64,000 nucleotides of DNA from Burkholderiales bacterium (GTDB taxonomy: Bacteria > Pseudomonadota > Gammaproteobacteria > Burkholderiales > Burkholderiaceae_C): contig JACPOI010000009.1 of the NCBI GenBank assembly GCA_016185015.1, positions 1 through 64,000 of the forward strand. The letters run 5' to 3'. Below, one piece after another: positions 30,442 through 49,040 of this stretch (position 1 is the first letter of the stretch; every line of letters starts with the position of its first letter). A program made the position numbers and the translations under genes. Under the pieces are notes generated by a model that saw nothing but the letters and a program-made list of their open reading frames with translations, was not told the DNA's origin and made no database searches.

Positions 30442-31218
30442 CTATCCTTTAGAGAAGCCCGCGAATCGATCCCTGTGGGCGCGCAAATAGGGCAGATGGT
30501 TCACAGATAACCAGCGCAAACTCATCCCTGGTACAACGCCTAGTAGCTGACGGTCTTTTGATGAAATTTGCTCAGCCACGACGAGTGCGCCTTGGTCAGT
30601 AAAGCTGATCATGAAACTGTCAAAAAGGGCGTCCAGGTTGGCGCTGAGCAAAAAGCCGTTGTACACATCCAGGCGCTCGGCATCGGTGTCGCAATCAGCC
30701 CAAGGCTTGGCATGGCTGGCGCGCAAGGCCTGAGGCGTGGACACACCTGTCACGGCGCAAGCCCCGCCCCAGTAGTCCAGCAGAGCCTGCCGGTAGGTCT
30801 GCTGGCCTACTCGCTGGCGGACCATGCGCAGCACCTCGGTGTTATTGGCCGTGGCCTGCGGCATGGTTTTCAGTTCGGCCTGCACCTGTTGCTCAAAGGC
30901 CGTGACGACCTGGTTAGGCAGGGCCTGCGCCAGCGCTGCAGCACGGCGCAGCCATTGCGCCAAGGCGGCCTCTGAGGGAAGCGAGAAAAGAGTCGCATCT
31001 GAACTGGTGGGTGGGAAGCTGCGCGCCAACTCCACGCCCAAGGGCGCGGGCCCCTGGGTCAGCTGCGCCTGGTAGCCTTGCGCGCCTACCGCCACGGAAA
31101 CCTGGGCGGGATGCCGGGCTGACGCCAGCGCCGCATGGGCGGCATCACCGGGCAGCACGTGCTCAAAGCCGTTGTCATGACCAGCTTTTTCAATGAGGGT
31201 GCGTTGCAGAGGGTTCAT
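30442..31218 (-). CDS. HNH endonuclease, last gene of the defence operon
   Basis: 258 residues. The C-terminal half (about 140-258) is an HNH nuclease of the restriction-associated type: YWGGACAVTGVSTPQALRASHAKPW, then YNGFLLSANLDALFDSFMISF; His169, Asn187/194 and Asp196/200 are candidate metal or catalytic residues, and only one Cys of the usual zinc pairs is present. The N-terminal half has no recognised domain. The start overlaps the RNA-ligase stop (ATGA), proving tight coupling. It would cut DNA, though HNH enzymes can also nick RNA:DNA. An upstream in-frame extension was rejected because it lies inside the ligase gene. Confidence 0.85.
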   Translation of the reverse strand: MNPLQRTLIEKAGHDNGFEHVLPGDAAHAALASARHPAQVSVAVGAQGYQAQLTQGPAPLGVELARSFPPTSSDATLFSLPSEAALAQWLRRAAALAQALPNQVVTAFEQQVQAELKTMPQATANNTEVLRMVRQRVGQQTYRQALLDYWGGACAVTGVSTPQALRASHAKPWADCDTDAERLDVYNGFLLSANLDALFDSFMISFTDQGALVVAEQISSKDRQLLGVVPGMSLRWLSVNHLPYLRAHRDRFAGFSKG

Positions 31219-31922
31219 ACCTGTTGGACAGACCAGTCCAGCCGGTTCCACTGAATTCGACGGCGGCTCCAATGTTCGGTAATGGTTTGCGTGAAATCAG
31301 GTCGCACCAGCTTTGCGCGCGCTTCGCACCAGTCCGCAGATTCACGTCGAATGACTACGCCCTCTAGCGGGCCTTCGCGAAACCGACTGTGTTCGGTGGT
31401 GAGTAATTCCTGGAGTTTTAGCAATTCGTATTGCCCTCGACGCAACTCTGGCGCCGTGGTTAGATTCAGAGTGACTGCGAACTCATTCCGACGGCGGGTG
31501 CTCCAGAAGCGTCCTCGGGCACGGTCGTACACATCGAAGAGTAAGAACCAGTCGGGTAAGTGGTCATAGTCTAGGGAGTGCCGTGCGGCACACCACTCAC
31601 CAAACAGCATCAGCCTAGAGGATTCCTGCTGCGCCAGTTCGACTCGAAGCTTTTCGCCATGCAAGGTCAACCAGTCTGGCAGGCGAGCAAATTGCCCGGC
31701 ATGAGGGGCATGCAGATATTGGCCACGATTTTGGGCGCGAAGTTCGCCTGCGGGAGATAGCGAGAGCCCGAGATTGGCTCCGTCCAGCTTTTCTTCAACC
31801 ACCACTTCCGCGTTCAGGAACTCTTGCGCCTCTTGAGGGGACAAGACCTTGTCATCGCGTGGCGCGCCTTGCGCCAGCCAAGCAAGGTGAGGAGTGTGGG
31901 GGAAGCGAAAGAAGTCAGTCAT
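31215..31922 (-). CDS. RNA ligase family protein (T4 Rnl2-like)
   Basis: 235 residues, a compact nucleotidyltransferase. All core motifs are in order: motif I EEKLDGAN with adenylated Lys45, motif III LFGEW (106-110), IIIa WFLLFDVYD (125-133), motif IV EGVVIRRE (187-194) and motif V KLVRP (204-208). Enzymes of this family seal 5'-phosphate to 3'-OH nicks in RNA. No polynucleotide kinase or OB domain is present. It overlaps the PIN gene by four bases upstream and the HNH gene by four bases downstream, which suggests RNA is cut and resealed, or a nicked nucleic acid is sealed, as part of the defence response. Confidence 0.88.
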   Translation of the reverse strand: MTDFFRFPHTPHLAWLAQGAPRDDKVLSPQEAQEFLNAEVVVEEKLDGANLGLSLSPAGELRAQNRGQYLHAPHAGQFARLPDWLTLHGEKLRVELAQQESSRLMLFGEWCAARHSLDYDHLPDWFLLFDVYDRARGRFWSTRRRNEFAVTLNLTTAPELRRGQYELLKLQELLTTEHSRFREGPLEGVVIRRESADWCEARAKLVRPDFTQTITEHWSRRRIQWNRLDWSVQQV

Positions 31923-32461
31923 TCCGCATTTTCAGGGACGGAGGGCGCGCCTTTGGCAGGAAATTTCTTAATATAAAACCGACACGCATCATCAGGGCAT
32001 AGAAAACGTACGCGAATACCTCGGGCTTCAAGGCGTTGCCACCAGTCCAGCCACTTGCAATCAACCGCCTGCAAAATCACCGGCCTGGCTGGGTGCGCAT
32101 TGGCCACAGCTGCAAACTTGCGATCCGGCGCGTCAAATGTCGTTTGTAACGCCGGGTCGGGAAACTCAGTGAATATATTTTCTGGTGTCTCTGTAATGGA
32201 CACCTGTTCAACGTGCTGAGGCTTGTCGGCATTTCGTAACAACCACTTCAGGAATACATCTCCCACACCCTTCGGCGGGTGCAACCTCGTCTTGTTCTGG
32301 TATTCCTTCAAGATACGGTATCCATCGTCAATGACCGTGATGCCTCGAACCTGCATATCTTGCAGCCGGCGCACACACTCGGCCACACACTCTGGAGAAG
32401 CATCTTCGTGCTGGTCATTGGCAACCAGCAAGACATTGGTGTCAATGACCGCCCGCATCAT
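31919..32461 (-). CDS. PIN-domain protein paired with the DUF3696 ATPase
   Basis: 180 residues. The N-terminal MMRAVIDTNVLLVANDQHED is the PIN first-acid motif (Asp7, then T-N); further acidic candidates are Asp46/47 (TVIDDGY), Glu53 and the later FDAPDRKFAAVANAHPA block with Asp in the usual third position. PIN domains are Mg-dependent RNases; this one would be the RNA-cutting partner of the ATPase. The gene overlaps the ATPase by four bases upstream and the RNA ligase by four bases downstream. It is not a VapC with VapB antitoxin, as no antitoxin gene is present. Confidence 0.8.
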   Translation of the reverse strand: MMRAVIDTNVLLVANDQHEDASPECVAECVRRLQDMQVRGITVIDDGYRILKEYQNKTRLHPPKGVGDVFLKWLLRNADKPQHVEQVSITETPENIFTEFPDPALQTTFDAPDRKFAAVANAHPARPVILQAVDCKWLDWWQRLEARGIRVRFLCPDDACRFYIKKFPAKGAPSVPENAE

Positions 32462-33852
32462 GGGGCATCTACCGTGCGCTGCCTCTTCTTGGTTTCCATA
32501 GCAGCTAAGGTACGGGCAGCAATATCGGCCATTTCATCCCCAAAGAAGTTCTCGGGCCAATTTTCGATTTCACCGAATGCGTTAAGTCGCAGGGGCTCTA
32601 GCTCCGTGGATGAACCAGACCGGCGGCAGAAATAAATGGCCACGTCATCTGTAGTCAACTGCCCCTCTGCGATGCGCCGTTGCAGGCGGTTGAGGAAGTG
32701 CTCAGAGTGGCTTTCGATGATTAGCTGAACATTGCGCTCTTTGCCGTCTTCACGCGCCTGGATGGCGGAGATGAAAACATCTGCCAATTCCGCCTGCACC
32801 TGGGGATGCAAATGAATCTCTGGCTGCTCCATCCACACCGTTGAATTCGGTGGACAGTAGAACGCCTGAACCAAAGCTGGCAGGACCTGGGATACCCCAA
32901 ACCCCACATCGGTGATCTTGACTTCCGGGGCGCCAAGGTGAGTCTTCAACAGGACTTCGTATTCCTTGCGGCCCTCGGCCACCGGCTTGACCGTAAAGCT
33001 ATGGATCACGCCCAGATCTTTCAACCATCCGGCAATAAAGGTCGTGAAAGCTTGTTTGGACTTTTTCGGACCTCGGTTCAGCATACGTTCTTCGTGCTGG
33101 GCCGCCAGAATTGCCGCCACAGTTGCCTCCCCTGTCTGCCCAACCCCTTCCGGCGTATCACCAGACCACTGGTAAGTACGCTGAGGGTGGTTCCTGAGCG
33201 GCCCCAAATAGGCAACGCTACCCAATAGGTTTTCGGTTGACAGCGCCAAGTCCGTCAAAAAACCTGCATTCTTAAAGCGTGCGATGCTCAGGTCGGACAC
33301 ACGATAGAACTTCTCAGGCTCATCCAAAGGCCACTTGCGACCGTCGGCCATCTTGAAGCGGTACTTGACCGATTTCAGGGAGAACTTACGATTTGTGCCA
33401 CGCACGAACTTCACGTCTAGTACAACACCGTTAGCGTCTTTCAGGTCGTATGCAATAGACGCCACCTCAGGCTGCCCGCTTTTTCCTGCAGACAAACGCA
33501 CCGCGAGTTCGATTTGATTTCCGCTGTAGCGCCGGGTGCTATCTAGAGGATCCTTCACCTCCATGGATTTGGGCAACTCCCAACCTAGTTCAAAGTCCAA
33601 GGGCTTGTTTAGATCATGGCCATTCAGACAGTCAGAGAAAGTACCCAGATCGATCAAAGAAGTGGTATCGCCTAGGTGAAGGGCACGCTTTCGATCTGTA
33701 GAAAGCGCAGTCTGCTTCAAGCCCAGCAACAGATGCCCAAGACTGCTTTTCCCAGCGCTGTTGGCGCCGAATATCACCGTCAGGGGGGCCAGGCGTACCG
33801 GCCCGGTGTCACGCCAAGCCTTGAAGTTTTTAATGCGAAGTGACGTCAGCAT
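32458..33852 (-). CDS. AAA/ABC-type ATPase with DUF3696 C-terminus
   Basis: 464 residues, related to the SMC-like/OLD ATPases of anti-phage systems. Walker A is FGANSAGKSSLGHLL (29-36), the signature/Walker B region is WMEQPEIHLHPQVQAELADVF and the H-loop is IESHSEHFLNRLQRRI. The C-terminal LRLNAFGEIENWPENFFGDEM is DUF3696-like. There is no Toprim nuclease domain as in OLD; the partner nuclease is the PIN protein coded next. Its start overlaps the methyltransferase 3' end by seven bases. Such ATPases usually sense phage products and switch on a linked nuclease. Confidence 0.87.
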   Translation of the reverse strand: MLTSLRIKNFKAWRDTGPVRLAPLTVIFGANSAGKSSLGHLLLGLKQTALSTDRKRALHLGDTTSLIDLGTFSDCLNGHDLNKPLDFELGWELPKSMEVKDPLDSTRRYSGNQIELAVRLSAGKSGQPEVASIAYDLKDANGVVLDVKFVRGTNRKFSLKSVKYRFKMADGRKWPLDEPEKFYRVSDLSIARFKNAGFLTDLALSTENLLGSVAYLGPLRNHPQRTYQWSGDTPEGVGQTGEATVAAILAAQHEERMLNRGPKKSKQAFTTFIAGWLKDLGVIHSFTVKPVAEGRKEYEVLLKTHLGAPEVKITDVGFGVSQVLPALVQAFYCPPNSTVWMEQPEIHLHPQVQAELADVFISAIQAREDGKERNVQLIIESHSEHFLNRLQRRIAEGQLTTDDVAIYFCRRSGSSTELEPLRLNAFGEIENWPENFFGDEMADIAARTLAAMETKKRQRTVDAP

Positions 33853-36800
33853 GTGTGCAAATCTCCAGTAGCCAGTCTATCCCACGCCGCCAGCACCAGC
33901 CGCTGTGTTCGGTACTCGCCAAACTCGCGAAGTTCACCGGTTTTGAGCACGCGGAAGGTTTCGCTGGGGTAGTCGGAGCCCAGCACGTCGGCTGGGTCGA
34001 GGATGTAGCGCAGCTCGTCACGGGTCAGGCCGTAGAGGCGGGCGTAGCAGGCGTCCAACTCGGCGCGCAGTTGGGCACGGCGCTCGGGGTTAAAAGAGAA
34101 CGGCGGGCCTTTGTGGCCCAGCGCCAGCGCCCAGCCAGCCAGGTCGTGCGCTGTGTAGGTCAGTTCGAGCACGCGCGGGACGATGAAGGCCAGGTCGGCT
34201 TCGGTGTAGCGGTCTGGGGGCAGCACCGGGAATTGCTTGAGGTAACCGTAAGTGAGGTGTGTACCGCCTACCTTAACGCGGGCGCAATAGTCCAAGACCA
34301 GCGAGCAAAAGTTGCCCAACAAGGCCGCGACTTTGGGGCCACGACCTTCCGTGAAGAACAAGGGCATCGTGTGGCCCACCCCCGCCAACGGCACCACCGA
34401 CGCAATCACCGTACGCTCGTTGGTGGCGTTCGTAATATCCCGCCACCCCATCAACCACTGAGGGCAAGACGCCTGCAGCCAGCGTTCGGCCAGGGCCAGC
34501 ACGTCGTCCGCGGTGTTGAGTGCAGCATCCGGAGCGGGCAGGTCGCGGTGGTGGGTGGTCCAGGCCAGTAGGGTTTGCACGGCCGCCGCGTCCACGGCGT
34601 ACCAGGCGGTGCTGGCGTGCTCGTTGGACATGGCCACTTCAAAGCTGCCCTCGGCCGGCAAGTAGTTGTCGTCCAGCGGCTTCAGGCTGGGCGGGTTGTC
34701 GCCGCACAGGCCCAGTGAAACGGGAGCCACGGCCTGGGCATAGGGGTGGCGCTGCACAAAGCTGAGCCAGGCGGCATAGACTCCCAGCTCCGGCTGGGCC
34801 CGGCGTTTGTCTGCCAGCCACCAGGCGAACAGTAGTTGGGTCACGCCCAGCAGCACGGGGGCCTCGTCCCGGTCGCGTAGGGCCTTGCGCAGGCCGTCCG
34901 GCAGGGTGGTGACGCGCAGCCAGACTTCGCGCGCCTCCACCCAGTAGCGTGGGGTGACGGTGGTGGCGGGGTTCTGCTTCTCGGTCAGCGTCATGTCCCG
35001 GCTGTCATCCTGCCCGGTGTAGGTAGCCCAGCGGTGGTCAAACTGGTGGATGAGCTTGGCTTCGTACAGGGGCAGGCGGGTGGGTGTGGGGGTGCCTTTG
35101 AACAGCTCGCTATCACCCGACATGTGAAACATCGCCGAAAACCGGATGCCCCACGGATTGACCTCGGGGGTAACTAGGCGGGCCGCCTTGCCTTCGCCTT
35201 GCCAGATAGCCTCCCGGATCAGCACGGGGGCGGCCGCGTAGAGCTTCTTGGTCAGCTCGGCATCACGGCTGCTGCGGAAGACCGGGCAGGTCAGCGTGTT
35301 GGGGTTGATGAGGCGGAACTCGTCGGGTGTGAGGGTGAAGCGGCGGCGCGGGTCGCTGAGTTGTATCACTTGTTCTGCAAAGCAAACAAATTCTGCCTTG
35401 GGGGTACTTCCCAATGTGATCAGGCAAAACTTCATGCGGCTGTCAACTGCAGGGAACAGCTTGGCGCGGTTCTCGATGTCGTACAGGCTGACGAGTCGGC
35501 CCTTTTGGGTGATGTGCCCAAAGTAGGCCTTGGTACTGTCGTCTGTGGCGATACCGGTGGGCACGATAAACCCGGCCCGGCCTTGCGGTGCAGTGATTTG
35601 CAGAATGGTTTCTGCAAACAGTGCGTAGGTGTTGACGTCGCCCACGCCGGTGAGCGGGTAGCGCCCGGCATCCTCTGCGTCCACGTGCATGAAAACGCTG
35701 GCGGCTTCTGCGGTGCGGCGGGCGCTGATGAACTCCGCATGCAGGCGTTGCTCGGCTGTACTTTCGGCCGGCGTATGGTGCGTCGCATCGTTAGGGTAGA
35801 CGTTCTGGCTCAGCGTCCCCTGGCTCAGCCACTGGATGCGCTGGCTGCGCTCGGCCTTGTTCTTTGCGGTGGCTACCGCAGGATGGCGGGTGGCGAAAAA
35901 CTCCTCCTCTTGCAGTTTGATGCGCTCCCACGGCGGGTTGCCCAGCACGCAGTCAAAGCCCCCTGTGGCAAACACCTGCGGAAAAGCCAGCGGCCAGTGA
36001 AACACCTGGGCTTGCTGGCAGGCGGCACGGGTCGCAGCCACAGCGGCAGCATGTGTGGTGCCCTGCTCTTGCAGGGCGTGTGGTGCGGTGAGTGCGGCGT
36101 GCAAGGTGGCGCTGGTGGGCACCAGGCCGGATGTATCGGCCGTCTTGGGCATCAGGAAGGCGCCAACCAAAAGGTCTGCCGCCAGGGCCAGGGGGCTGCG
36201 CTGGGTCTGAGCCAGGAGTTGGCGGTAGGCCTGCTCTTTGGCGGCCACCTCTTCCGGCGTTTCGGCGCTCATGGCCTCGATGACGCGCAGGGCTTGCAGG
36301 CCGGTGGCGTTGTCAAAGCCCAGCAGGGCCTGGCCGCCTTGCAGGTCTTTCGCGATTTGCTTGAGGCCGGCGGCATTCGACTTGGCCAAGACCTTACACA
36401 CCTCTTTGTCGTCGCCAGAGAGCGGCTTGAAGGCGTCTTTGGAAATGCCTTGCTCCAGCGCGTGCAGGTCGGTCAACCCCAGGAGGGCGTCGCCACACTG
36501 CAGGTGATGGTCCAGAAAACCCAGGGGACGACCTTCCTCAAAACCTTCGAGCCAGAGCGCGGTGCGGGCTAGCTCCACGGCCATGGGGTTGCGGTCTACC
36601 CCAAAGATGCAACGGGCAATCGTTTCGCGCAGGGCGTGGCGGTAGGCCTGCGGGGTGACGGCGCCATCGGGGGAGCGCAGAGCTGCCAGGCGTTCGGCCA
36701 GCCGGCGCGCGGCGGCCAACAAGAAGTGTCCGCTGCCGCAGGCGGGGTCTATCACGCGGATGGCCAGCAGCGCTTCCACCGGGTTGGCGGGGTTGGCGGC

Positions 36801-38336
36801 TAGGCGTTGCTCAATGACTGGATCCAGCGCGCTCTTGATGAGCTCTTGTACTAGGCTGTCCGGCGTGTAGTAGCTGCCTGTGAGTTTGCGGTCATTACCG
36901 GCCGTGCTGCCTTCACTGGTCAGGCCGACAAAGCCGAAGCGACGGGCATGCAAGTCCACCTCGGGCACGAGTTCCATCAGGCTTTCATAGACGCTGCCGA
37001 GTTCTTCGGTGTCCATGTTGCGGTAGTCGATGGGCGCGAGCTGCCCGCCCGGGCTCTTGGCCCAGCGCAGGCTTTGCATGGAGGCCAGCAAGTCGGCGTT
37101 GGTGAGCTGTGCTGAGTCCAAGGCCGGGCACTGGCTGGGGGCGAACAGGCCGCCCAGGGCGGGCAGGCCCAGCCGTGTTTCACCTTGGGCCAGGCCCTTG
37201 AAGACGATCTTGACGGCTTGCCACAGGTCGTCAAACCGAGTGCGTGCGCGGCGGCGAAGCGCCAGGTCTCGCAGGCGGGCTAGGGCATAGCCCTGGGCAT
37301 AGGCTTGGGCGGCGGCCAGCTTGGTGCGGGTGGTTTCGGGGGCATCCTCGGCCTGGGGGGCGTTGGGGATGAGGCCGCGCTCTTCCACGCTGAAGACAAA
37401 GATGAAGCGGTAGATGAGCCGCAGCAGCTGGGCAAAGTAGGCCTCTTTACTGAGGCTGCCGTCTTGCAGGGCCAGGCGCAGGGCCTCGTTGCCGGGGTGC
37501 TGCACAAAGCCCTGGCCCAGGGTGATAAGTGCTTCTGTGACGCCCAGGCGCAGGCCTTCGCGCACGCGGGTGCCTTCTTCCTGGCCAGCTTCGCGCCAGG
37601 CTTCCCACACCACGGGGGCTGCTTGTGCGGCCGTGCCGCCCAGCAAACCGGCGCGGCTGGCGTGCAGCAGGCGCCAGGCGTAAGCGAACTCAGCAAAGCG
37701 TTGGCCGCCGAGCAGGTCGGCCAGGTCAATGTCCAGGTAGCTGGGGCGGGTGAGGGTGGCGGCATCGCGCAGCAGGCGCAGGGTTTTGCCGTTGGTGACG
37801 AGAGCCCAATGGTGGTCTGGGCTGGCGTTGAGCAACTCCTGCGCCAACTGAAAGGCGCTCTTCTTGCGGCTACCGCTGCCCTGAATCGCAAAGCGCGGGT
37901 CAGGGTCGTCCAGCCCTAGAGTGTGCGGCGCCACCACGATGGGAAGTGCGCGGCCCGGGTGGTGCGGCGCGGTGCCCAGGTGGGTGATGGGGTAATGCCT
38001 GTCACCTACGGTGATGCCGGTGCTGGCACCCACCGCGGGATAAGCCAGGGCATCGCGCAGCAGCTCGGTGATGAAGGTTGAGGTGGCGTGTTGCGCGTCA
38101 TAGTCAGCGCGTTCCAGTAGCGGAGCAAAGCTGCGCCACTGGGCGCAGGCAATCTGGAAGGCGCGGCTGTATTCGTCTTTGAGCTTGAGGCCTTTGGGTA
38201 TGCCGTAGTCAGCTTCGGTTTGCAGGCGGCTTTGACCTAGAGCGGCTTTTCCCAGCACGTCGGGTAGGAAAAGACCACCTTCTAAGCGCAGGGTGGGTAG
38301 GTTCAACGCGGCAGCATGGTGACGGACGGATTTCAT
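33846..38336 (-). CDS. Eco57I-type adenine DNA methyltransferase (DrmMI/PglX-like)
   Basis: 1496 residues. SAM motif I IRVIDPACGSGHFLLAA (about 522) and motif IV NPPWERIKL (about 799) define an N6-adenine methyltransferase of the gamma type with target recognition in the C-terminal third. The first 350 residues resemble the non-catalytic N-domain of type IIG/PglX proteins (SPDHHWALVTNGKTLRLLRD); I see no clear PD-(D/E)xK site. It would methylate host DNA so that the two helicases and nucleases spare it, as DrmMI does in DISARM. The stop overlaps the ATPase gene; nine bases separate it from the SNF2 gene upstream. Confidence 0.88.
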   Translation of the reverse strand: MKSVRHHAAALNLPTLRLEGGLFLPDVLGKAALGQSRLQTEADYGIPKGLKLKDEYSRAFQIACAQWRSFAPLLERADYDAQHATSTFITELLRDALAYPAVGASTGITVGDRHYPITHLGTAPHHPGRALPIVVAPHTLGLDDPDPRFAIQGSGSRKKSAFQLAQELLNASPDHHWALVTNGKTLRLLRDAATLTRPSYLDIDLADLLGGQRFAEFAYAWRLLHASRAGLLGGTAAQAAPVVWEAWREAGQEEGTRVREGLRLGVTEALITLGQGFVQHPGNEALRLALQDGSLSKEAYFAQLLRLIYRFIFVFSVEERGLIPNAPQAEDAPETTRTKLAAAQAYAQGYALARLRDLALRRRARTRFDDLWQAVKIVFKGLAQGETRLGLPALGGLFAPSQCPALDSAQLTNADLLASMQSLRWAKSPGGQLAPIDYRNMDTEELGSVYESLMELVPEVDLHARRFGFVGLTSEGSTAGNDRKLTGSYYTPDSLVQELIKSALDPVIEQRLAANPANPVEALLAIRVIDPACGSGHFLLAAARRLAERLAALRSPDGAVTPQAYRHALRETIARCIFGVDRNPMAVELARTALWLEGFEEGRPLGFLDHHLQCGDALLGLTDLHALEQGISKDAFKPLSGDDKEVCKVLAKSNAAGLKQIAKDLQGGQALLGFDNATGLQALRVIEAMSAETPEEVAAKEQAYRQLLAQTQRSPLALAADLLVGAFLMPKTADTSGLVPTSATLHAALTAPHALQEQGTTHAAAVAATRAACQQAQVFHWPLAFPQVFATGGFDCVLGNPPWERIKLQEEEFFATRHPAVATAKNKAERSQRIQWLSQGTLSQNVYPNDATHHTPAESTAEQRLHAEFISARRTAEAASVFMHVDAEDAGRYPLTGVGDVNTYALFAETILQITAPQGRAGFIVPTGIATDDSTKAYFGHITQKGRLVSLYDIENRAKLFPAVDSRMKFCLITLGSTPKAEFVCFAEQVIQLSDPRRRFTLTPDEFRLINPNTLTCPVFRSSRDAELTKKLYAAAPVLIREAIWQGEGKAARLVTPEVNPWGIRFSAMFHMSGDSELFKGTPTPTRLPLYEAKLIHQFDHRWATYTGQDDSRDMTLTEKQNPATTVTPRYWVEAREVWLRVTTLPDGLRKALRDRDEAPVLLGVTQLLFAWWLADKRRAQPELGVYAAWLSFVQRHPYAQAVAPVSLGLCGDNPPSLKPLDDNYLPAEGSFEVAMSNEHASTAWYAVDAAAVQTLLAWTTHHRDLPAPDAALNTADDVLALAERWLQASCPQWLMGWRDITNATNERTVIASVVPLAGVGHTMPLFFTEGRGPKVAALLGNFCSLVLDYCARVKVGGTHLTYGYLKQFPVLPPDRYTEADLAFIVPRVLELTYTAHDLAGWALALGHKGPPFSFNPERRAQLRAELDACYARLYGLTRDELRYILDPADVLGSDYPSETFRVLKTGELREFGEYRTQRLVLAAWDRLATGDLHTC

Positions 38337-38345
38337 GGCGGTGGC

Positions 38346-41192
38346 TTACAGAGCGTCCGGCAGCAGGACATAGACGCCAATCACATCGACCGGCAAGCAG
38401 GGGTTAACGCTGTACTGACCCACGTCGCGGGCGGCTTCACGCACACGGCGGTGGTCGGCCAACAGAGATTGGGCGCGTTCATGGGCCAGGGCTTCAAGAC
38501 GCTGGGGGTGCGCCTGCAGAAAGCTCAGGGCCTGGGCGACTTCGCGACTCATGGCGTCGCGCGGCAAGTTGCCGGTGGGTTGGCACTCCAGCAGCCGGGC
38601 GGTGGCGTCGTCACTCAACCACTCGGGGGTACTGCGGCCTTTGACAGCCAGGGCCACAGTTTCCTCGGCCATCATCTGGAAGGGCTGGCGGCGGCGCACG
38701 TAGCCCAGCTGATGGCGCAGCCGCAGCAGGTAGAGGGTGGTGACCACGTCCACCGCGTCGGTGATAGTGGCGGCGCAGCGTGCGGTGATGGTGCTGGCGG
38801 GGTTGGCCTGGTCCTGCAAGGCAGTTTCCAGCAGGTGGTCTGCCAGGACCGTAACCAGCGGGTGGCTGCGGTGCAGCTCGGCAAAGTTCAGGTTGAGGAT
38901 GGGCTTGCTGGCATCCGGCACCAGGCCTTCATCGGCCAGGCGCTGGCGCAGGGCCTCCGGCAGGTGCTGGGTGGGCAGGCGATGGATCTGGCGGCGGGTG
39001 GCTTCCAGGGGGGCGTTCAGGCGCGCGCAGGCGCTTTGCACGAAGCGCTGCACATCTTCGCTGGAGCCCAGGGCGGCTTGCTGCTTCTGCCATTCGGGCA
39101 GCACTTCTTCTGGCCGGATACGGCGCTGGGCAAAGACGGTGCGGTTCGCCTTGGCTTTTTCCAGGGCATCGGTCCACTGGGTCTGCAGAGGGGCCAGGAC
39201 TTGCTCAGCTTCGGTGAAGTCAAAGCCAAGCTGCAGGTTGTCTGAGGCCACGCGCTTCATGAGTGCGGCTTTAACCATGGCCTGGTTGATACGCTGCTTG
39301 TCTTCTGGCATGGGCACCAGGATGCCGAGCTCTTTCTGGATGGCCTCGCCCTTGCGCAGGATGACGTTGAGCACAAAGCCATCAACCGGGTTGTCGTGGC
39401 CATACAGCATGGTGCAGCGCACCTCAGGAGCTTGCTGGCCGAAGCGGTCAACGCGGCCCTCGCGCTGTTCGTGGCGGGTGGGGTTCCAGGCCAGGTCGTA
39501 ATGCACGACAGCCGTGAACAGGTGTTGCAGGTTGATGCCTTCGGACAGGCAGTCGGTGGCGACGAGGATACGGGCCTCGTTCTCATCCATCTCCTCGACT
39601 CTGTCTCGGCGCTCTTCCGGGCTTAGCTCTCCTGTGACCACATCCACCAGTACCTTGGGGAAGTGCTTTTTCAGTTCGGCGGCCACATACTGGGCGGTGG
39701 CGACGTAGCGGCAGAACACCACGGTGGCGTAGCCGTCTTTGACCAGGCCCTCCAGGTGGTTGATGAGTGTGGTCAGCTTGGGGTCGCCCGCCCTACCAGA
39801 GAGGCGCTGAGCCTCTGCAATCAGGGCTTGCAGGCGGACGCTGTCTTGGGTGCGCTCCAGCACCTGGCCAGCGGGCTCCAGGTCATTGCTGCCCAGGTCG
39901 TCGGACTGGCCGTCGTGCAGGCGTTCGTCTTCAAGCAGTTCGTCTTCGTCAGCGCTGGCCAGGGCTTCGGTTTTGCCTTCCAGTCGCGTGGTCAGGGCCT
40001 TGACGGCGGCGGCGGGGCTGGAGGCCACGCAGCGCAACAGGGCGAGGGTGGCGTACCAGATCAGGCGTGCGCTGCCTTGCTGGCTTTGTTCCACCGATTC
40101 GGCCATTTCACGGCAGTAGGTCTGCACGGCATCGAAGAAGGCACCCCAGTCGCCCGTGAGCTTGTAGGTCAGCTCGGTTTTCATGCGGCGTGCAAAGCCT
40201 CGGCCGTCATGGGTCTCGGCTTGCCACTCCGCAATGTCTTTACGGCGGCGCTGCACAAAGTGCCGGGCCAGCAACTGGCGTAAAGGGTCATCCGCTGATG
40301 TGCGCGTCTGCAGATCCAGGAACGCGGGGTCCAGCAGGGACAGCAGGTTGTAAAAGGCCGCTTCATCGCCCGAATGGGGTGTGGCTGTCAGGAGGAGCAG
40401 GTGGCGGTTTTCGTCTTTGGTCAGGCGTTGCAGGAGCTCAAAGCGCAGCTGTTTGCCCGCGCCACTGCTGGCACAGGTGTGGGCCTCGTCCACGATGATG
40501 CATTCGGGGGCGATGGACAAGAAGTGCTCGCGGTGGCGTTCGCTCTTGATGTAGTCCAGGCTCACCACAACGATGGGGTGGTGGTCAAACAGGCCGACAC
40601 CGTGGGGCAGGTCGCGCTCCACACGGCTGGCGCTGGCGGAGGTCAGGGCTATGGCTTGCAGATTGAAACGGCTCAGTAATTCAGACTGCCATTGCTCCAC
40701 GAGATGGGGAGGGCAGAGCACAGCCAGGCGGGAGACTTCACCGCGGTCCATCAGCTCACGCACGATGAGACCAGCTTCCACGGTTTTTCCGATACCTACG
40801 TCGTCGGCAATCAGCAGGCGTACCGTGGTCAGGCGCAGAGCCATGAGCAGGGGCACAAGCTGGTAGGCACGCGGCTCAACGGCAATGTTGCCGAATGAGC
40901 GGAACGGACCGCCACCAGCGCGTAGCTTCAGGCGCAGAGCGTCGCGCAATAACAGGGCTGCTGCGTGGTTGCCGGGCTGCTCAGGGCTGGGCCAGGGGAA
41001 GGTCGCCGGCTCGACGGGGGCGAACTCCAGCTCCGGTATCAGTGTGACGATGTCTTCGTCTGCTCCACCCAGGGGACGCAGGCGCAAGAGCTGGCTGCCG
41101 TCGTCCTGCCGAGCGTCTGCTTGCACAACCCACTCTCGGCCGCGTGCGCGCACCAGGTTGCCAGGCATGAAATCGTGAGTGGCTTGTGTCAT
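38346..41192 (-). CDS. SNF2-family helicase, DrmD-like
   Basis: 948 residues. N-terminal SNF2 ATPase: Walker A DDVGIGKTVEAGLIV (about 129), DEAH box CIIVDEAHTCAS (about 234), and LLLLTATPHSGDEAAFYNLL. The helicase C domain has VATDCLSEGINLQHLF (about 544) and the arginine-finger block EQREGRVDRFGQ (about 577). A long C-terminal extension (about 620-948) has no recognised enzyme motif. The layout matches DrmD of DISARM class 1, a DNA translocase of the HepA/RapA group. The gap to the YprA-like gene is 18 bp, to the methyltransferase 9 bp. Confidence 0.88.
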   Translation of the reverse strand: MTQATHDFMPGNLVRARGREWVVQADARQDDGSQLLRLRPLGGADEDIVTLIPELEFAPVEPATFPWPSPEQPGNHAAALLLRDALRLKLRAGGGPFRSFGNIAVEPRAYQLVPLLMALRLTTVRLLIADDVGIGKTVEAGLIVRELMDRGEVSRLAVLCPPHLVEQWQSELLSRFNLQAIALTSASASRVERDLPHGVGLFDHHPIVVVSLDYIKSERHREHFLSIAPECIIVDEAHTCASSGAGKQLRFELLQRLTKDENRHLLLLTATPHSGDEAAFYNLLSLLDPAFLDLQTRTSADDPLRQLLARHFVQRRRKDIAEWQAETHDGRGFARRMKTELTYKLTGDWGAFFDAVQTYCREMAESVEQSQQGSARLIWYATLALLRCVASSPAAAVKALTTRLEGKTEALASADEDELLEDERLHDGQSDDLGSNDLEPAGQVLERTQDSVRLQALIAEAQRLSGRAGDPKLTTLINHLEGLVKDGYATVVFCRYVATAQYVAAELKKHFPKVLVDVVTGELSPEERRDRVEEMDENEARILVATDCLSEGINLQHLFTAVVHYDLAWNPTRHEQREGRVDRFGQQAPEVRCTMLYGHDNPVDGFVLNVILRKGEAIQKELGILVPMPEDKQRINQAMVKAALMKRVASDNLQLGFDFTEAEQVLAPLQTQWTDALEKAKANRTVFAQRRIRPEEVLPEWQKQQAALGSSEDVQRFVQSACARLNAPLEATRRQIHRLPTQHLPEALRQRLADEGLVPDASKPILNLNFAELHRSHPLVTVLADHLLETALQDQANPASTITARCAATITDAVDVVTTLYLLRLRHQLGYVRRRQPFQMMAEETVALAVKGRSTPEWLSDDATARLLECQPTGNLPRDAMSREVAQALSFLQAHPQRLEALAHERAQSLLADHRRVREAARDVGQYSVNPCLPVDVIGVYVLLPDAL

Positions 41193-41210
41193 GAGTAAAA
41201 CTGGAAAGAC

Positions 41211-44200
41211 CTAGCTGAAAACATGGCGGTGGGCGGCAAACTGCTCTTGCCACAGCGCGGGGTTGGACATGTCGAGGATTGACCAGCCCTTGTCTGCAAG
41301 CTCGGCTTGGTGGTCCGCTGCCACGGGCTGCAACACCACCAGGGTGCGGGCCGCCTTGTATTGGCCCGCCACGATGAGCCTGCCGCCCAGCACGGGCAGT
41401 TGGGCTTGGTCTGGCGCCTTATGCGCACCCGCTTGGAGTGCCTGTTGCCATTGGGGCCACAGCACATCTTTCGGGCCTGCAGGGGCGGCTGAGGCTGCTG
41501 ATGGGGGCGGCGGCGGTTGTCCAAGTTCCGGCTTGCCTGGAGTCACCTGGGCGTTGGCCAAGGCGACCAGCATTTCAGTGGCCTGCGTGTTGCGGCGGTT
41601 GATGTGGCCGTGATCGGGCTGGTTGAAATACGACAACAGGCACTGGTAGCAACCCGCTTCGCAGATGCTGTGGCCATCGACGGTCTTCTGCTCTAGCTCG
41701 GGCAGGCCATCGACCGTCCAGGGGCCTGTGGGGGCTCGATAGTGCATTACGCGCAGGGCCGCGGCCGCGACTTGGGCCATAGCCTGCGGCTCGGTAGCGA
41801 GGCGGGTCAGCACCCCAGCGCCGCCTTCGGAGGCCTCGTAAAACAGCAAGGCCTGGCGTTCGTCCTGCTTGGGCAGGGGCTCAGCCACCAGCTCGGACTC
41901 CTCAATCTGGAAGGTCATCTCAATGCCGCGCTTGAGTGCGGCTTGGAGCGTGGCCATGGCTTCCAAATCCATGGGCACGGTGGGTGCCAGGATGAGGATG
42001 TTGCGGTGGTCTTCGACGAAGGGGACGATTTGCTGGTTGGGCACCTTGTCCAGCAGGCTGTCGTCATTGCTGCCGTCATCTGTGGCGCCTGGCTCGTCTT
42101 TTTTGCTCCACTGGCCTGTGATGGGGTTGATGTAGAAGCCGAGTTGCTCTTTGTTCTTGCGCCGGCGCCAGCCGCGGTTAATCCGCCAGATTTGCGCTGC
42201 AGGAGCATAGGTCAGCGCGGCCAAAGTTGGAGCATCGTCAACGCTACCACCGCGGATCAATGATTTGTGTTGCGCCAGCTTGCCATCGGGCCCCGGCAGG
42301 AAGCGGTAGGTGGTTTGCAGCTCGAAGCCCTGGCGTTGGCGGTCCTCATCGTTAATGGAGATTCGCTCCACGGGGATGGTTTCTACCGTTTCGATGCGGT
42401 AGAGGTTGCGAACCCAGTCATGGTCTGTGAGCAAGGCGCCGCAGTTTTCGCAGCAGTTCTGGTGCGGCTCGGTGCCGCCTTCCTCGCCCATATGGGCATA
42501 ACCGCACTGGCTGCAAACACGGCTGGCGACTGTGGCGAGCGTGCTGTTCCCCGAGATGTGGTCTGCCGAGCCGACGTTGAGCTTGGCGCGCACCACCCGG
42601 TACATGCGCCCCTGGTGGTAGATGAGGCTGCGCGGGCCAAACTCGGATAACGCCAAAAAGCGCGGACGGCTGACCATGCTGCCTTCGTCATCCTTGCCTT
42701 TGGCCGCGGTACCGCCTTTGGCAGGGATCCAGGCCATGAGCGGCAAGCGCGGGAAGTTGTAGCCAGGTAGAAAGCCTTGGCTGGCGAGGTAGCGGTAGGT
42801 ATAGAAATCGGAGTTTTGGCCGTTGCCGGACTTGAGTAAGACGCTGTACTGGCGGGCGGCATCGCCATAGCGGCGCTGCGCATTTTGCTTTTCTGCGTGC
42901 GAGGTGGTGTAGCTCTTGACCACCTGGTCAGCCATGTCCATTTGCTTACGGGTGGCATCCACCAGGGCGCGCCAGCGCTCGAAAGCGGCATTGAAATCTT
43001 CGCCCGCTTTCTCAATCGTTTTGGTCACATGGTCGGCTGTAAACCAGGGACTGTTCTTGAGCACGGAAGTTAGTTGCGCCATAAAACCTTGAGAACTAGC
43101 CAGGGCACGGGCTGTGACCTCGGGCGCCATGAGTTTGTCGCGCAGGGCCGGCAGTAAGGGCTTGTCAGGCCGCTCCAGGTCAAGCATGGGAGCGATGCTG
43201 GTGTCCAGCTGAACTTGTGCTGCGGCCAGCCACACGGCATGCAGGTGGCTTTCAATCAAATCGCGGTTGGCCAGGTCCAGGGTGGGCGGCTTGACGATGC
43301 CGTGCACCATTTCGGTGGCGTGGTGGAAAAACCATTGGTCGTGCGGACTGAGGGCGGCGCAGTAGGTGATGACCAGTGCTTGTTGTCCTGAGCGACCGGC
43401 CCGTCCACTACGCTGGGCGTAGTTGGCGGGGGTGGGTGGGACGTTGCGCAAGTAAACAGTGTTCAGTGCAGAAATGTCCACGCCCAGCTCCATGGTGGGG
43501 GAGCAGAACATCACGGGCAGGCGCTTCAGCGGCGCCTCATGCGCGGGGTTATCCAGCCAGTCCTTGCGATCTTTCTCGGTATAGCGGAAGCGCTGTTCCA
43601 GCAACTGCCGGCGAGCGGCATCCACCTGCGCGGTGTGTTCCTGGGCCTCAAAGTCAAACAGGGGGTGTCCTTGTTGGCGTAGGGTCTGTGCAACCGCCTG
43701 GTAGAGGTTGCGGAAGAATTGATTGTGTTTGCTGTTTTCCTGGGCCTGTGTCTCATCGACTAACAGCCAGTCCATGGAGGAGGCGTTGAGGCGCCAGCCG
43801 ATGACTTGGGCGTCCACATCGGCCTTCTGGACGTAGCCGTAATTGGAGGCAGCCTGAAGCAGCTGCTCCACAAACTCGACCCACTGGGGGTCTTTCCAGC
43901 CACTGACTTGGCCTGCTGCCGCACTGTCTTTCCAGAATGCGGCAGCCTTGATGTCTTTCAACAGGCGGGAACGGGAGCCGCCGGGAATCAAATCGGGACG
44001 GGGCTTTCCTTTGTATTCTGGGCGCTTGGTCAGAATCAGATATTTGGCCGTTTCGAGGTTTTCGTCTGGCGCAAAAGCCCAGCGCTCGCTCAGGTACTGG
44101 TAGGCGGTTGTTTTGGCCTTGTCTTGCTCTACTGCGTCCAGGTAGCGCGATTCCATACACAGGCTGCGTCGCATGCTGTCGAACAGGATGCGGGCCAGCT

Positions 44201-46520
44201 CCACGCGCTGCGCGGGGGTGATTTTGGACAGCACCGGGCTGCCGCTGAACAAGGAGGACTCGGCCGAGAATTCGTCCAGCCCCCGATAGGCAATCGAGAG
44301 CAGGTTCAGCTGGTCCAGGTTGGGGTTGTTAAAGCGCCAGCCGCGACGCAGGTCCCGCAAGAGGCGGTAGCCGATGATGAAGCGCATGGTGCGCTGGGCA
44401 TCTTGGCGCGCCAAGCCCATGAGCTTGGGCGTGCGCAGATACTCGGCCAGCGTGCCGAAATCTGTTTTGTCAAAGCCCAGGGCTTTGAAGACGGCATCTG
44501 CCAAGGTTTCTTCTGACAGCAAGCCGTGGTTGTTTTGCAGAGCCCCAATCAACGCAGAGCGTAGGGTGAGCAAAAACAGGAAGTCATTGAAGTGCCCAGC
44601 TTGCAGGGCGGCATCTTGCCGGTTGTCGGTGAAGCCGAGCAACTTGCGTGGGTCTGGCTGATCCTGCGCAATGTCCTTGACATCGAATAGTTGTCGGATG
44701 GCTCCGAGCGTGAGCATGGTGGTGGCGGATGACCGACCCTCACCAGACAGGCTTGCCAGTCGGTTGATGTCTTTGCCGTGAACTTCATGGGTCTGGCCGC
44801 AGTTGAGGCAAAAACGAAATTTGCCGGGGATGTACCAGTAGGACTCACCACTGCCTTGCCAGCCTTGGGGGCTGACCTGCACGTCCGCGGGCACATGTTT
44901 GGCGTATGTGCTTTTGAGCTTGGGTTCGGCCTTGGTCAAGTCCAGCCAAGACTCCGGCAAATCTTCAATGTTGCCTTTGTAGGTCTGACGAGGGTTGGCC
45001 GGGCACAGGAAGCCGTAGCTGGCGTTTTCGTCGTCGTCGCCAGCGATATCGTCAATTTCGCGAGGGCTGTATTCCAGCTGGGCTTGGCCTGAGCGCCAGA
45101 CTGGGTGGTATTCCTGTCCGCAATCTCGGCAGAAGTGGACGGGATACAGCTGTGCCCCTTCGTCCTGGCGCCCAGGCGCATAGCGCTGGGCGTCTAGGGT
45201 GATGTGGCGCTTTTTAGCTGGCTCCAGCGTGGCTAGAACCTTGCCAGGGCCGCTGATGAACTGATGTAGTTTGAAGGCAAAGGGTGGGCGGCCTTGGGGG
45301 GTCTTGATGTCATTGGCGGCTACCAAGAATCGCTGCAAGCCTGCCATAGCTTCATCAGGGGAGCACTGCGCATCTTCCGCCAGCAGGCCGGCAGCATCTT
45401 TCAGCGTGATGGGCTTGGCGCGGCGTGGTGGCTCATCTGCCGGCAGCTCAATACCCAGGGTCAACTCCACCCAAATGGCCAGGGGGTGGTTGCTGAAGGC
45501 TTCAAAATCAGACCAGCCATGGTTTTCCGTCAGCAGCGAGGCCTTCAGCATGGGCTTGATGGACTGCACGTCTTTGCCAGGGTTTGTGACGCGCTGCAGC
45601 GTTTCGCCAATGACGTCGTGCTCAGTGATGGATGCGCCAAACAAAAGGCTCGCCACGCTTGCCACCGTTTGATTGCGGTCGGCCTGGGTGCCGGTGGAGG
45701 ACATGGTGGCGGAGGTGCCGATGCAGACCAGTTGCTCGGCCTTGAGCCGTTCGCGCAGGCGGCGGACCAGCAGGGCCACATCAGCTCCTTGACGACCTCG
45801 GTAGGTATGGAGCTCGTCCAGCACCAGAAATTCCAACCCCTGGCAGTGCTCGACGACCTGGCGATCAACCTCTTCAAAACGCGTCAGGATCAGCTCCAAC
45901 ATCATGAAGTTGGTGAGCAGGATGTCCGGCGGGTTGTTGGCAATGTCTTGCCGTTCGGTCGCGCTTTCTTGACCGGTGTAGCGGGCCACGGTGAAGGGGG
46001 CCTGGTCTGGCGCGTAGCCATGGAGGAATTTGTCTAGTTCCTCCAACTGGCTGTTGGCCAACGCGTTCATCGGGTAGATAACGATGGCGCGCGTGCGTTT
46101 CTGTGGATCGGCAGCCTTGGCTTTTACGATGCGGTCGATGATGGGGATAAAGAACGACAGCGACTTGCCCGACCCGGTGCCCGTCGTCACGACATAACTT
46201 TGCTGCTTTTGGGCCTTGGCCAGAGCCTGCAACTGGTGGACATAGAGATGCAGGTCTGCAGGCTTGCTCTCAGTTTTCCCCGTCTGGAAGATGTGCGCGC
46301 AGTCAGGGTGCAGCACGCCCTCTTTGGCCAACTGCTGGACGGTGCCGCTTCGCTTGTAGTTGGGGTTGATCTGGATCAGCGGCTCGGGCCAGTAGCGACC
46401 ATGGGCATATTCCTCTTCAACCTTGGCCAGGATGTCTGGTGCTGCTACTTTGGAAAAACTGCGAGAAAAGGTGCTGTACTCGCTGATGAGACGATTGCGA
46501 AACTGAAAGACGTCATCCAT
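41211..46520 (-). CDS. Giant YprA/DruE-like DEAD-box helicase with DUF1998 C-terminus
   Basis: 1769 residues, first gene of the operon. Motifs: HQLQALAKAQ (Q-motif-like), Walker A TTGTGSGKSLSF (114-120), motif II LVLDELHTYRGRQG (about 235), GTSATMSS, a central FTDNRQDAALQAGHFNDF, motif V CSPTMELGVDISALNTVYLRN and motif VI QRSGRAGRSGQQALV (about 1040). Zinc-knuckle cysteines appear at CRDCGQEYH, CLNCGQ, CSQCGYAHM and CCENCGALL, and the DUF1998-like end has CEAGCYQCLLSYFNQPDHG (about 1623). This architecture is that of YprA-family helicases central to DISARM (DrmA/B), Druantia (DruE) and Dpd systems. The start MDDVFQFRN follows aggga; 12 upstream in-frame residues are excluded. Confidence 0.88.
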   Translation of the reverse strand: MDDVFQFRNRLISEYSTFSRSFSKVAAPDILAKVEEEYAHGRYWPEPLIQINPNYKRSGTVQQLAKEGVLHPDCAHIFQTGKTESKPADLHLYVHQLQALAKAQKQQSYVVTTGTGSGKSLSFFIPIIDRIVKAKAADPQKRTRAIVIYPMNALANSQLEELDKFLHGYAPDQAPFTVARYTGQESATERQDIANNPPDILLTNFMMLELILTRFEEVDRQVVEHCQGLEFLVLDELHTYRGRQGADVALLVRRLRERLKAEQLVCIGTSATMSSTGTQADRNQTVASVASLLFGASITEHDVIGETLQRVTNPGKDVQSIKPMLKASLLTENHGWSDFEAFSNHPLAIWVELTLGIELPADEPPRRAKPITLKDAAGLLAEDAQCSPDEAMAGLQRFLVAANDIKTPQGRPPFAFKLHQFISGPGKVLATLEPAKKRHITLDAQRYAPGRQDEGAQLYPVHFCRDCGQEYHPVWRSGQAQLEYSPREIDDIAGDDDENASYGFLCPANPRQTYKGNIEDLPESWLDLTKAEPKLKSTYAKHVPADVQVSPQGWQGSGESYWYIPGKFRFCLNCGQTHEVHGKDINRLASLSGEGRSSATTMLTLGAIRQLFDVKDIAQDQPDPRKLLGFTDNRQDAALQAGHFNDFLFLLTLRSALIGALQNNHGLLSEETLADAVFKALGFDKTDFGTLAEYLRTPKLMGLARQDAQRTMRFIIGYRLLRDLRRGWRFNNPNLDQLNLLSIAYRGLDEFSAESSLFSGSPVLSKITPAQRVELARILFDSMRRSLCMESRYLDAVEQDKAKTTAYQYLSERWAFAPDENLETAKYLILTKRPEYKGKPRPDLIPGGSRSRLLKDIKAAAFWKDSAAAGQVSGWKDPQWVEFVEQLLQAASNYGYVQKADVDAQVIGWRLNASSMDWLLVDETQAQENSKHNQFFRNLYQAVAQTLRQQGHPLFDFEAQEHTAQVDAARRQLLEQRFRYTEKDRKDWLDNPAHEAPLKRLPVMFCSPTMELGVDISALNTVYLRNVPPTPANYAQRSGRAGRSGQQALVITYCAALSPHDQWFFHHATEMVHGIVKPPTLDLANRDLIESHLHAVWLAAAQVQLDTSIAPMLDLERPDKPLLPALRDKLMAPEVTARALASSQGFMAQLTSVLKNSPWFTADHVTKTIEKAGEDFNAAFERWRALVDATRKQMDMADQVVKSYTTSHAEKQNAQRRYGDAARQYSVLLKSGNGQNSDFYTYRYLASQGFLPGYNFPRLPLMAWIPAKGGTAAKGKDDEGSMVSRPRFLALSEFGPRSLIYHQGRMYRVVRAKLNVGSADHISGNSTLATVASRVCSQCGYAHMGEEGGTEPHQNCCENCGALLTDHDWVRNLYRIETVETIPVERISINDEDRQRQGFELQTTYRFLPGPDGKLAQHKSLIRGGSVDDAPTLAALTYAPAAQIWRINRGWRRRKNKEQLGFYINPITGQWSKKDEPGATDDGSNDDSLLDKVPNQQIVPFVEDHRNILILAPTVPMDLEAMATLQAALKRGIEMTFQIEESELVAEPLPKQDERQALLFYEASEGGAGVLTRLATEPQAMAQVAAAALRVMHYRAPTGPWTVDGLPELEQKTVDGHSICEAGCYQCLLSYFNQPDHGHINRRNTQATEMLVALANAQVTPGKPELGQPPPPPSAASAAPAGPKDVLWPQWQQALQAGAHKAPDQAQLPVLGGRLIVAGQYKAARTLVVLQPVAADHQAELADKGWSILDMSNPALWQEQFAAHRHVFS

Positions 46521-46648
46521 GCGGTTGTCCCTGAGTGTTGTCCGGGCACATGCCACCCGGTCTCATTTCATATGAGTTTTTCCCCATTCTATGGGGTGCT
46601 CTTGACCGTAGAAACGCCTATTGTCGAACAGTCGAACTGGACTCTGTG

Positions 46649-47012: not shown

Positions 47013-47675
47013 ATGCAGCAGGCGCCTTGCGATTCTTCGCTATCCCTGACGTGTACGGTCCTCGGAGGATTTGGTTTTGACTTTTCTCCGAACGAGACGG
47101 TCGATCTAAAGTTCAAACAAGAGTCTTTTGAGCTTCGTTCGGGTGAATTGCACCACCAGGAGATCTACTACCTCGAATTGGAAGAGGTGGAGATCGCCGG
47201 GCCCGGCACAGTCACAAAAGGCGGTGGATTTATTGGTGGTGGTTTTGGTATTGATGGCGCCATTCAAGGCATTGCTTTGGCGACAATTTTGAACGCGCTG
47301 ACTACGAAGTCAAAAGTCCACACGTTCTTGAAGTTGGTGACTAACTCAGGAGAGATTCATCTTCACTACGGTGGTATGGAGCCAGCCGCCCTTCGAATCG
47401 CCCTGTCTGAAGTTTTTGTTGTTTTACGACGGCAGGATCTCGGTTGGCTAGCGGCAAGGCGCGCGCTCCTGGACAGTAAAAAAGACGGCATGTCCAATGA
47501 GCAGTATGAGCTGCTTGTTAGTCGACTTCTCAAGCCTCCGACTCACAGGCCGCTCTCGGAGCGACAAGGTCGCTGCCCAAGCTGTGATGAAAGCATCCCA
47601 TTACTCTCTCCCACCTGTCCAAAGTGTCACGCTCAATTTGGAGCAGGCACCGCCTGGAGCGTCAAACCTATTTAA
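47013..47675 (+). CDS. Hypothetical protein with Gly-rich helix and C-terminal zinc ribbon
   Basis: 220 residues. The first part is beta-rich (CTVLGGFGFDFSPNETVDLKF), the middle has a Gly-rich hydrophobic segment GGGFIGGGFGIDGAIQGIAL followed by ATILNALTTKSK, and the end is a zinc ribbon GRCPSCDESIPLLSPTCPKCHAQFG with two CxxC pairs. A PH-like or short-membrane-anchored fold is possible but not established. The ATG at 47013 follows cagggag. It converges with the integrase, overlapping its 3' end by eight bases, and faces away from the defence operon; it is an orphan of unknown function in the element. Confidence 0.7.
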   Translation: MQQAPCDSSLSLTCTVLGGFGFDFSPNETVDLKFKQESFELRSGELHHQEIYYLELEEVEIAGPGTVTKGGGFIGGGFGIDGAIQGIALATILNALTTKSKVHTFLKLVTNSGEIHLHYGGMEPAALRIALSEVFVVLRRQDLGWLAARRALLDSKKDGMSNEQYELLVSRLLKPPTHRPLSERQGRCPSCDESIPLLSPTCPKCHAQFGAGTAWSVKPI

Positions 47676-48951: not shown

Positions 48952-49004
48952 CGGGAACACCTTCCAAAATGTGCCCCCGATGATGCCCCCAGCTGAGGAA
49001 GATC

Positions 49005-49040
49005 GCAACACTCAAATTTGGACAAATTTGGAAATGTTGC
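49005..49040. promoter_or_regulatory. Inverted and direct repeats upstream of the integrase
   Basis: gcaaca (49005) and tgttgc (49035) form an inverted repeat around two copies of aaatttgg spaced by two bases. Its place just before the integrase suits an operator for AlpA, integrase autoregulation or an excision factor. Confidence 0.4.

Follow-up and report, generated by a model that had tools for sequence, protein, structure and literature searches.

Does a tightly packed operon that joins two helicases, a methylase, an ATPase, a PIN-type RNase, an RNA ligase and an HNH nuclease encode one defence system or more than one? The operon in question lies in a stretch of 64,000 nucleotides from a Burkholderiales bacterium (GCA_016185015.1, contig JACPOI010000009.1, positions 1-64,000, forward strand; henceforth the window), and an earlier note had read it as a single seven-gene defence system. 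We find that the locus is two systems: an ARMADA-I-like core made of genes 1-3 and the HNH gene, which is also the last gene in relatives lacking the tail, and a separate, portable ATPase-PIN-ligase module. The nuclease of this ARMADA-I-like system is apparently supplied in trans, and the locus also holds an extended form of the candidate system HEC-03. The main new points are an exchange between a fused Vsr domain and a separate HNH protein, and the near-constant presence of the ligase in the module.

The core system and its nuclease

Seven open, co-directional minus-strand frames occupy positions 30442-46556, overlapping or nearly so, as expected of the single transcription unit proposed for them. 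In transcript order the intergenic distances are +18, +9, -7, -4, -4 and then -58, the last with the HNH gene read from its first TTG (31272). Because homology starts at residue 17-19 in six of the seven relatives aligned through the whole protein (L013, L025, L031, L033, L091 and L109; locus numbers are ours) and at residue 1 in the seventh (L034), the HNH start is most likely ATG 31218, which gives a 4-bp overlap with the ligase stop. The helicase frame opens at GTG 46556, and the in-frame ATG 46520 is an equally plausible start. Promoter and terminator scans gave no signal above the shuffled level. Locus L025 has the identical seven genes in identical order, so the arrangement is beyond chance; the earlier note had staked its reading on some homologous operon keeping the last four genes, and this one does.

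Hidden Markov models (HMMs) bore out the protein families named at the outset, the PIN protein being recognised without a Pfam match through conserved residues and a structural model. The first helicase is YprA-type with an MrfA Zn-binding domain and has DruE as its best model (319 bits), in keeping with the suspected kinship to the YprA systems of DISARM and Druantia. For the SNF2 helicase the best model is a PADLOC DpdE (712 bits), which likely holds ARMADA members, with DrmD next, and the protein is 72-81% identical to those of L013, L025, L031, L033, L034 and L109. The surmise that the first three genes fit ARMADA was right: they follow the order YprA-like, BrxHII-like, PglX-like given for Type I in the main text of the Bell et al. 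2025 preprint (PMC12458937). The same text puts the ARMADA helicase nearest Druantia DruE, another likeness to the window, and describes carriage on satellite-like elements. It also presents a predicted active Vsr-type nuclease at the helicase C-terminus as typical of Type I. Unlike that arrangement, the window helicase ends in an eroded Vsr domain, recognisable as a remnant with the motif absent and no Pfam match, and the operon has a separate HNH gene and an embedded three-gene module. In that main text, supplements aside, HNH occurs only in a reference title.

Assignment to the better-known relatives fails on their own models. For DISARM, DrmD scores 329.6 against a curated cut-off of 610, and neither DrmB, half of the split drmA/drmB pair of DISARM, nor DrmC, whose gene had already been reported missing, is among the matches listed for the seven proteins (PADLOC search, best 25 per protein). 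For Dpd, the scores are 196.5 against 500 for DpdE and 93.6 against 800 for DpdJ. Druantia combines DruE with other Dru proteins, and among the matches listed only the DruE type appears.

How, then, would a core with an eroded Vsr domain cut DNA? We gathered ARMADA-like loci from plasmids (62 records matched, 15 taken up, besides L013) and from genomes (counting the window's own, 7 hits among 369 genomes of the class at E 1e-100 and 13 among 398 of the phylum at 1e-120), extended 17 places, and annotated them by profiles built from the window proteins. HNH is the last core gene, without the window's module, in Acidithiobacillus, Paracoccus, Mesorhizobium, Agrobacterium, Croceicoccus and Sphingobium. 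In a tally of 32 ARMADA-I-like loci, 15 keep the Vsr motif with no HNH gene found, 14 have HNH and no Vsr motif, none has both and three have neither. Tail alignments show DF...DGxxH to be absent from the helicases of HNH loci and kept in most loci without HNH. The window-type tail is the same domain as the intact Vsr tails (profile match 98.8%, E 7.4e-17), while the tail of a second, alphaproteobacterial group matches them more weakly (62%, E 7e-5). All four intact tails tested match DUF559, which we take to be Vsr-like, and two also match MTES_1575 (a restriction endonuclease family), one of them weakly (E 0.12); a PDB search with intact tails gave as best match 3hrl, an endonuclease-like protein, at E 0.17. 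The HNH motif LRASHxxPW...NGxLL was seen by eye in 17 of 18 printed rows, L115 being unclear; a regular expression matched two of the 18 and was too strict. DNA cutting apparently moved from the helicase-fused Vsr domain to a separate HNH protein, which suggests that the DNA-cutting part of this newly described defence class is interchangeable. The pattern also offers a testable way to tell ARMADA systems that depend on a separate nuclease gene from those that do not.

The three loci with neither nuclease are from Kozakia, where IS21 lies directly behind the methylase, Chlorohelix and Streptomyces, the last two retaining part of the motif. The Hydrogenimonas tail was read as eroded while the record start cut off its operon; an annotated HNH gene was then seen at the other end of the circular plasmid, behind a PDC-M25A/B-like pair. 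Our first Vsr rule demanded PDF and scored L139-L144 and L153 negative, though their tails read ADF or VDF...DGPHH; it was widened after the tails were inspected, partly for L153 alone. Outside the tally are L147 and L148 (cut at contig ends) and L107 and L129 (not extended), all four with Vsr+ tails, as well as L149, in which no helicase is visible, L103-L106, L108 and L118-L130, which cover the same places again as shorter copies or short loci, and L030, L031, L033 and L034, whose helicases are absent or incomplete (for L033, the part of the tail end that can be seen looks eroded). Eight of the 15 Vsr+ loci show the usual order with 6 kb or more of visible sequence after the methylase, and in L116 and L153 the helicase lies behind the methylase with little or nothing visible beyond. 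Two points tell against a general exchange. In five of the 15 less than 4 kb is visible downstream (L144 3.7, L150 3.4, L143 2.6 and L111 2.0 kb, L139 none), and the pattern may reflect as little as one origin. On the SNF2-protein tree, where the window groups with Vsr+ loci of the same gene order, the pattern needs three changes (bootstrap 2-3; shuffled mean about 10).

The space that separates methylase from HNH serves as a cargo slot. Among 19 HNH-type loci with the methylase end and HNH both in view, 15 have intervening genes (window, L013, L025, L031, L033, L034, L091, L099, L110/L154, L112-L115, L137 and L146), one holds only a ligase remnant (L109; ligase residues 192-228, 76% identity) and three are empty (L131, L133 and L145). 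The cargo tested comprises LmuB-like SMC ATPases (L113, L114, L137 and L146), PDC-M25A/B with a protein matching a TIR effector (L154) and a UvrD-like helicase (L115); the L112 protein had no match among the families searched. Other positions in ARMADA-like loci are also occupied. The Acidithiobacillus operon (L109, 14818-19530) has a Phd-VapC pair between SNF2 helicase and methylase, besides the ligase remnant before HNH. A Nocardioides operon (L117, 17830-21739) is followed directly by an AAA ATPase and an McrC gene. A cyanobacterial locus (L030, 8410-8613 and 11244-13322) repeats the methylase C-terminus ahead of the ATPase and carries a PsyrT-like helicase behind the ligase.

The ATPase-PIN-ligase module

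The tail had been held to lie outside any named system. It is not part of ARMADA, as claimed, yet its first two genes are those of PADLOC HEC-03: the ATPase corresponds to HEC-03B and the PIN protein to HEC-03A, in frames overlapping by 4 bp, as judged by the A and B models alone. HEC candidates were reportedly defined in a 2024 preprint by Payne et al., HEC-03 being a Hma-embedded candidate. The window differs from HEC-03 in having an RNA ligase as third gene and in its hosts, which are ARMADA, Type I and Type III. A scan of genome contigs with a PIN alignment gave 417 encoding stretches; we used the best 80, so the sample leans to close relatives. The ATPase adjoins PIN in 76 of 76 loci, and the ligase does so in 76 of the 78 with room for it (exceptions L080 and L096). 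Given this linkage, the RNA ligase is probably the third component of HEC-03, the likely missing part of a catalogued candidate. Within the taxonomic order of the window, the PIN family occurs in 9 of 399 genomes, own included, with the ligase adjacent in seven of the nine and an ARMADA methylase end upstream in five; some of these loci are the same places as in the 80. A PADLOC-model search found distant PIN members in 5 of 274 genomes, own included, with a ligase in L020 and L021 and none in L018 and L019. In L013 (A. soli), HNH comes directly after PIN, and a scan of viral contigs yielded one module locus, L102. The titles and abstracts searched, among which the HEC-defining preprint was not, held no description of the combination, and we do not claim its absence from print.

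The putative active sites are conserved. Ligase residues K45, D47, G48, E109, E187 and K204 are present in 84 of 84 relatives, and PIN residues E53, D110, D113 and D134 in 74 of 74, with D7 in 73. The ATPase has its Walker A pattern in 87 of 87 and the pattern EQPE.HLHP in 77 of 87, and it also matches the NsnB (3e-59) and AriA (2e-23) models. The PIN assignment is a prediction based on the conserved acidic residues and a confident AlphaFold2 (AF2) model (mean predicted local distance difference test score, pLDDT, 94.4). PDB sequence searches with the ligase alone, the PIN profile and the ATPase gave nothing decisive: the sole match of the PIN profile below 0.001 is a designed TIM barrel. By profile, the PDB entries nearest to the ligase include 3qwu (named DNA ligase, 1e-5) and 2vug (PAB1020, 3e-4). 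Two identifications were rejected, PIN as HARP, as HARP structures appear only among weak matches, and the ligase as Rnl3, at 18.4 against the cut-off of 136.9 for TIGR01209 (NCBIfam). In three Aquabacterium loci (L069, L071 and L077) the ATPase matches only at both ends (about residues 1-49 and 327-464), PIN and ligase being kept.

Where does the module reside? Among the 80 loci, eight have a large ARMADA methylase nearby, six an ARMADA remnant only (L026 and L029 of these at contig ends), four Type III mod and res, three Type I M, S and R genes, two an HmaB-like gene and five single markers. L048 and L054 have the order hsdM-hsdS-ATPase-PIN-ligase-hsdR, L053, L063 and L075 carry the module behind mod and res, and L021 has it between an HmaB-like gene and an SNF2-type helicase. 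Full-length ATPase, PIN and ligase stand beside differing ARMADA methylase or helicase remnants in L010 (Azotobacter), L011 (Aeromonas), L042, L043, L056 and L086. The 17 ARMADA-labelled rows are dispersed over the ATPase tree, which forces a minimum of 11 changes of context; the rows closest to the window are L023 (short contig), L022 and L017 (no ARMADA in view) and L028, which has no core and retains an HNH remnant 74% identical to the window HNH. At 0.53-0.57, the module has a lower G+C content (GC) than HNH (0.62) or the three large core genes (0.60-0.65), although part of the dip may be intrinsic, since the ATPase and PIN genes of L025, L033 and L034 show one too. Gene neighbourhoods thus portray the three genes as a portable module, found with no known host system or inside ARMADA, Type I, Type III or Hma operons. 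A shared non-defence site was seen in gammaproteobacteria (L061, L070, L073, L081 and L083), where the module lies between Na+/H+ antiporter-like and ATP-synthase alpha/beta-like genes (Pfam run on one representative of each).

Proposed function and its rivals

What might the two systems do together? Starting from the observed gene content, HNH/Vsr pattern, modularity and conserved catalytic residues, we propose a nested defence locus, with ARMADA-I-like restriction and its trans HNH outside and an ATPase-guarded PIN RNase with ligase inside, and we give this proposal about an even chance. The methylase would mark self DNA, both helicases, judging from their families, would locate and unwind foreign DNA, and the HNH protein would cut it in place of the eroded Vsr domain. 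The DUF3696 ATPase would keep PIN silent while sensing a disturbed host restriction system or another infection cue; released PIN would cut an essential RNA, most likely tRNA, and stop translation. The ligase could act as antidote, resealing cuts for protection of the uninfected cell or for recovery. Metal-dependent PIN nucleases leave 3'-OH/5'-phosphate ends, which an ATP-dependent ligase can join unaided, so direct resealing is possible.

The module would then be a backup resembling PrrC, an RNase described in passages of PMC3874165 and PMC3506569 as sitting inside a restriction enzyme that keeps it silent and can release it. It would fire when restriction is subverted, and such a backup would complement a direct, non-abortive defence of the kind reported for ARMADA Type II in the abstract of PMC12458937. 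The window shares with EcoprrI an RNase with an ATPase function within a restriction-type operon. In EcoprrI, prrC lies between hsdS and hsdR, just as the module does in L048 and L054. Unlike PrrC, the module has separate ATPase and PIN proteins in place of an ABC-HEPN fusion, its own ligase and hosts beyond Type I, and it is known from genes alone; no PrrC or RloC family is among the listed matches of PIN or ATPase (for the ATPase, the best 25 of 66 in PADLOC). PrrC leaves 2',3'-cyclic phosphate and 5'-OH ends that phage T4 repairs with a kinase and a ligase (a passage of PMC3506569). If the module's ligase truly undoes its RNase, bacteria own a reversible RNA-cleaving immunity, whereas in the PrrC example, as those passages tell it, the repair ligase is the phage's answer. 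The HARP and Rnl3 pair, in the part of PMC12153264 that describes it, likewise links a PIN-superfamily RNase genetically to an RNA ligase, but with neither ATPase nor restriction operon, and the window ligase scores far below the Rnl3 cut-off. Menshen NsnB and PARIS AriA resemble the window ATPase, whose partners differ in being a PIN nuclease and an RNA ligase.

Several observations weigh against this proposal. PIN and ATPase occur without a neighbouring ligase in distant L018, L019 and L175 and in nearer L013, L080, L096 and L172, so the ligase cannot be essential. L099 carries the module behind HNH, outside the slot. As many as 52 of the 80 module loci have no tested restriction marker nearby, an upper bound, given the small set of reference proteins and the shortness of several contigs; a restriction trigger therefore cannot be general, and the ATPase may sense other cues. 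Besides lacking a Pfam match, PIN has no significant Foldseek match (best E 0.083), the top ones including several PIN-type folds and, at rank 2, a RuvB-like helicase.

A bolder and more tentative version makes the module a transferable, self-repairing translation brake, plugged into restriction-type operons as a tripwire against anti-restriction proteins. The ligase would reseal PIN's own cuts, making RNA-cleavage defence reversible, and the methylase-nuclease gap would be the ARMADA plug-in site.

The invariant ligase residues and the adjacency of ligase and PIN would also suit an RNA-repair unit without a toxin, in which PIN trims tRNA ends broken by the ribotoxins of phages or competitors and the ligase seals them; bacterial RNA-repair operons are known (Pnkp1-Rnl-Hen1, as far as the literature consulted describes them). 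We consider this unlikely, since a family search found no kinase, phosphatase or 2'-O-methyltransferase partner in the window operon, embedding in restriction operons is unexpected of a general repair unit, and PIN-ATPase pairs occur without ligase. Intact modules beside deleted ARMADA cores, and modules carried by plasmids that are conjugative or mobilizable (Aeromonas and Azotobacter), raise the prospect that the module is mainly an addiction or toxin-antitoxin unit, which stabilises its element, uses the ligase as antidote and has no direct part in antiviral defence; its recurrent insertion into operons of the restriction type, between hsdS and hsdR among other places, and the kinship of the ATPase to defence ATPases make this an equally improbable account. 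A single seven-gene machine, whose tail would process RNA for the core, is very unlikely despite the tight packing and the same order in L025, for core and module are each found without the other, Acidithiobacillus retains core and HNH although its slot holds no more than a remnant of the ligase, and the module has the lower GC, even if part of that dip recurs in relatives.

Carrier element and coordinates

The operon lies inside an integrated element of about 23.7 kb (25417-49131) that also encodes a Nudix protein and resembles the satellite-like carriers reported for ARMADA in the main text of PMC12458937 (Table 1). We compared its flanks with 11 same-genus loci: left and right flanks join at the repeat core in six (L156-L161), lie 40-55 bp further apart in three (L162-L164), and in two the right flank is unmatched (L165 and L166). 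A tmRNA at 12358-12732 was rejected as integration site, as its 3' region has no match of at least 14 bases elsewhere in the window.

Table 1. Features of the operon and its carrier element, in window coordinates
Feature	Position	Strand	Basis
YprA/DruE-like helicase with MrfA Zn-binding domain	41211..46520	-	HMMs; or from GTG 46556
C-terminal Vsr-type nuclease domain of helicase, without DF...DGxxH residues	41214-41594	-	tail alignments, profile comparison
SNF2/RapA-type helicase (BrxHII/DrmD-like)	38346..41192	-	HMMs
PglX/DrmMI-like adenine methylase	33846..38336	-	Eco57I 1.7e-18; DrmMI 2e-71
DUF3696 AAA-type ATPase (PADLOC HEC-03B), module gene 1	32458..33852	-	1.5e-127
PIN-type RNase (PADLOC HEC-03A), module gene 2	31919..32461	-	4e-28
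ATP-dependent RNA ligase, module gene 3	31215..31922	-	PF09414 8.4e-35
HNH nuclease, last gene of ARMADA-like core	30442..31218	-	HNH_2 3.3e-11
16-bp direct repeat, left copy (attachment core)	25417..25432	.	flank comparison; empty site in relatives
16-bp direct repeat, right copy (attachment core)	49116..49131	.	flank comparison; empty site in relatives
Tyrosine integrase	47668..49011	-	Phage_integrase, Arm-DNA-bind_3
Primase C-terminal/Toprim/DUF5906 replication-type protein	26076..28718	+	profile matches

Upstream of the operon, the stretch 46600-46890 resembles by eye the end of an IS3-type transposase and is probably a remnant.

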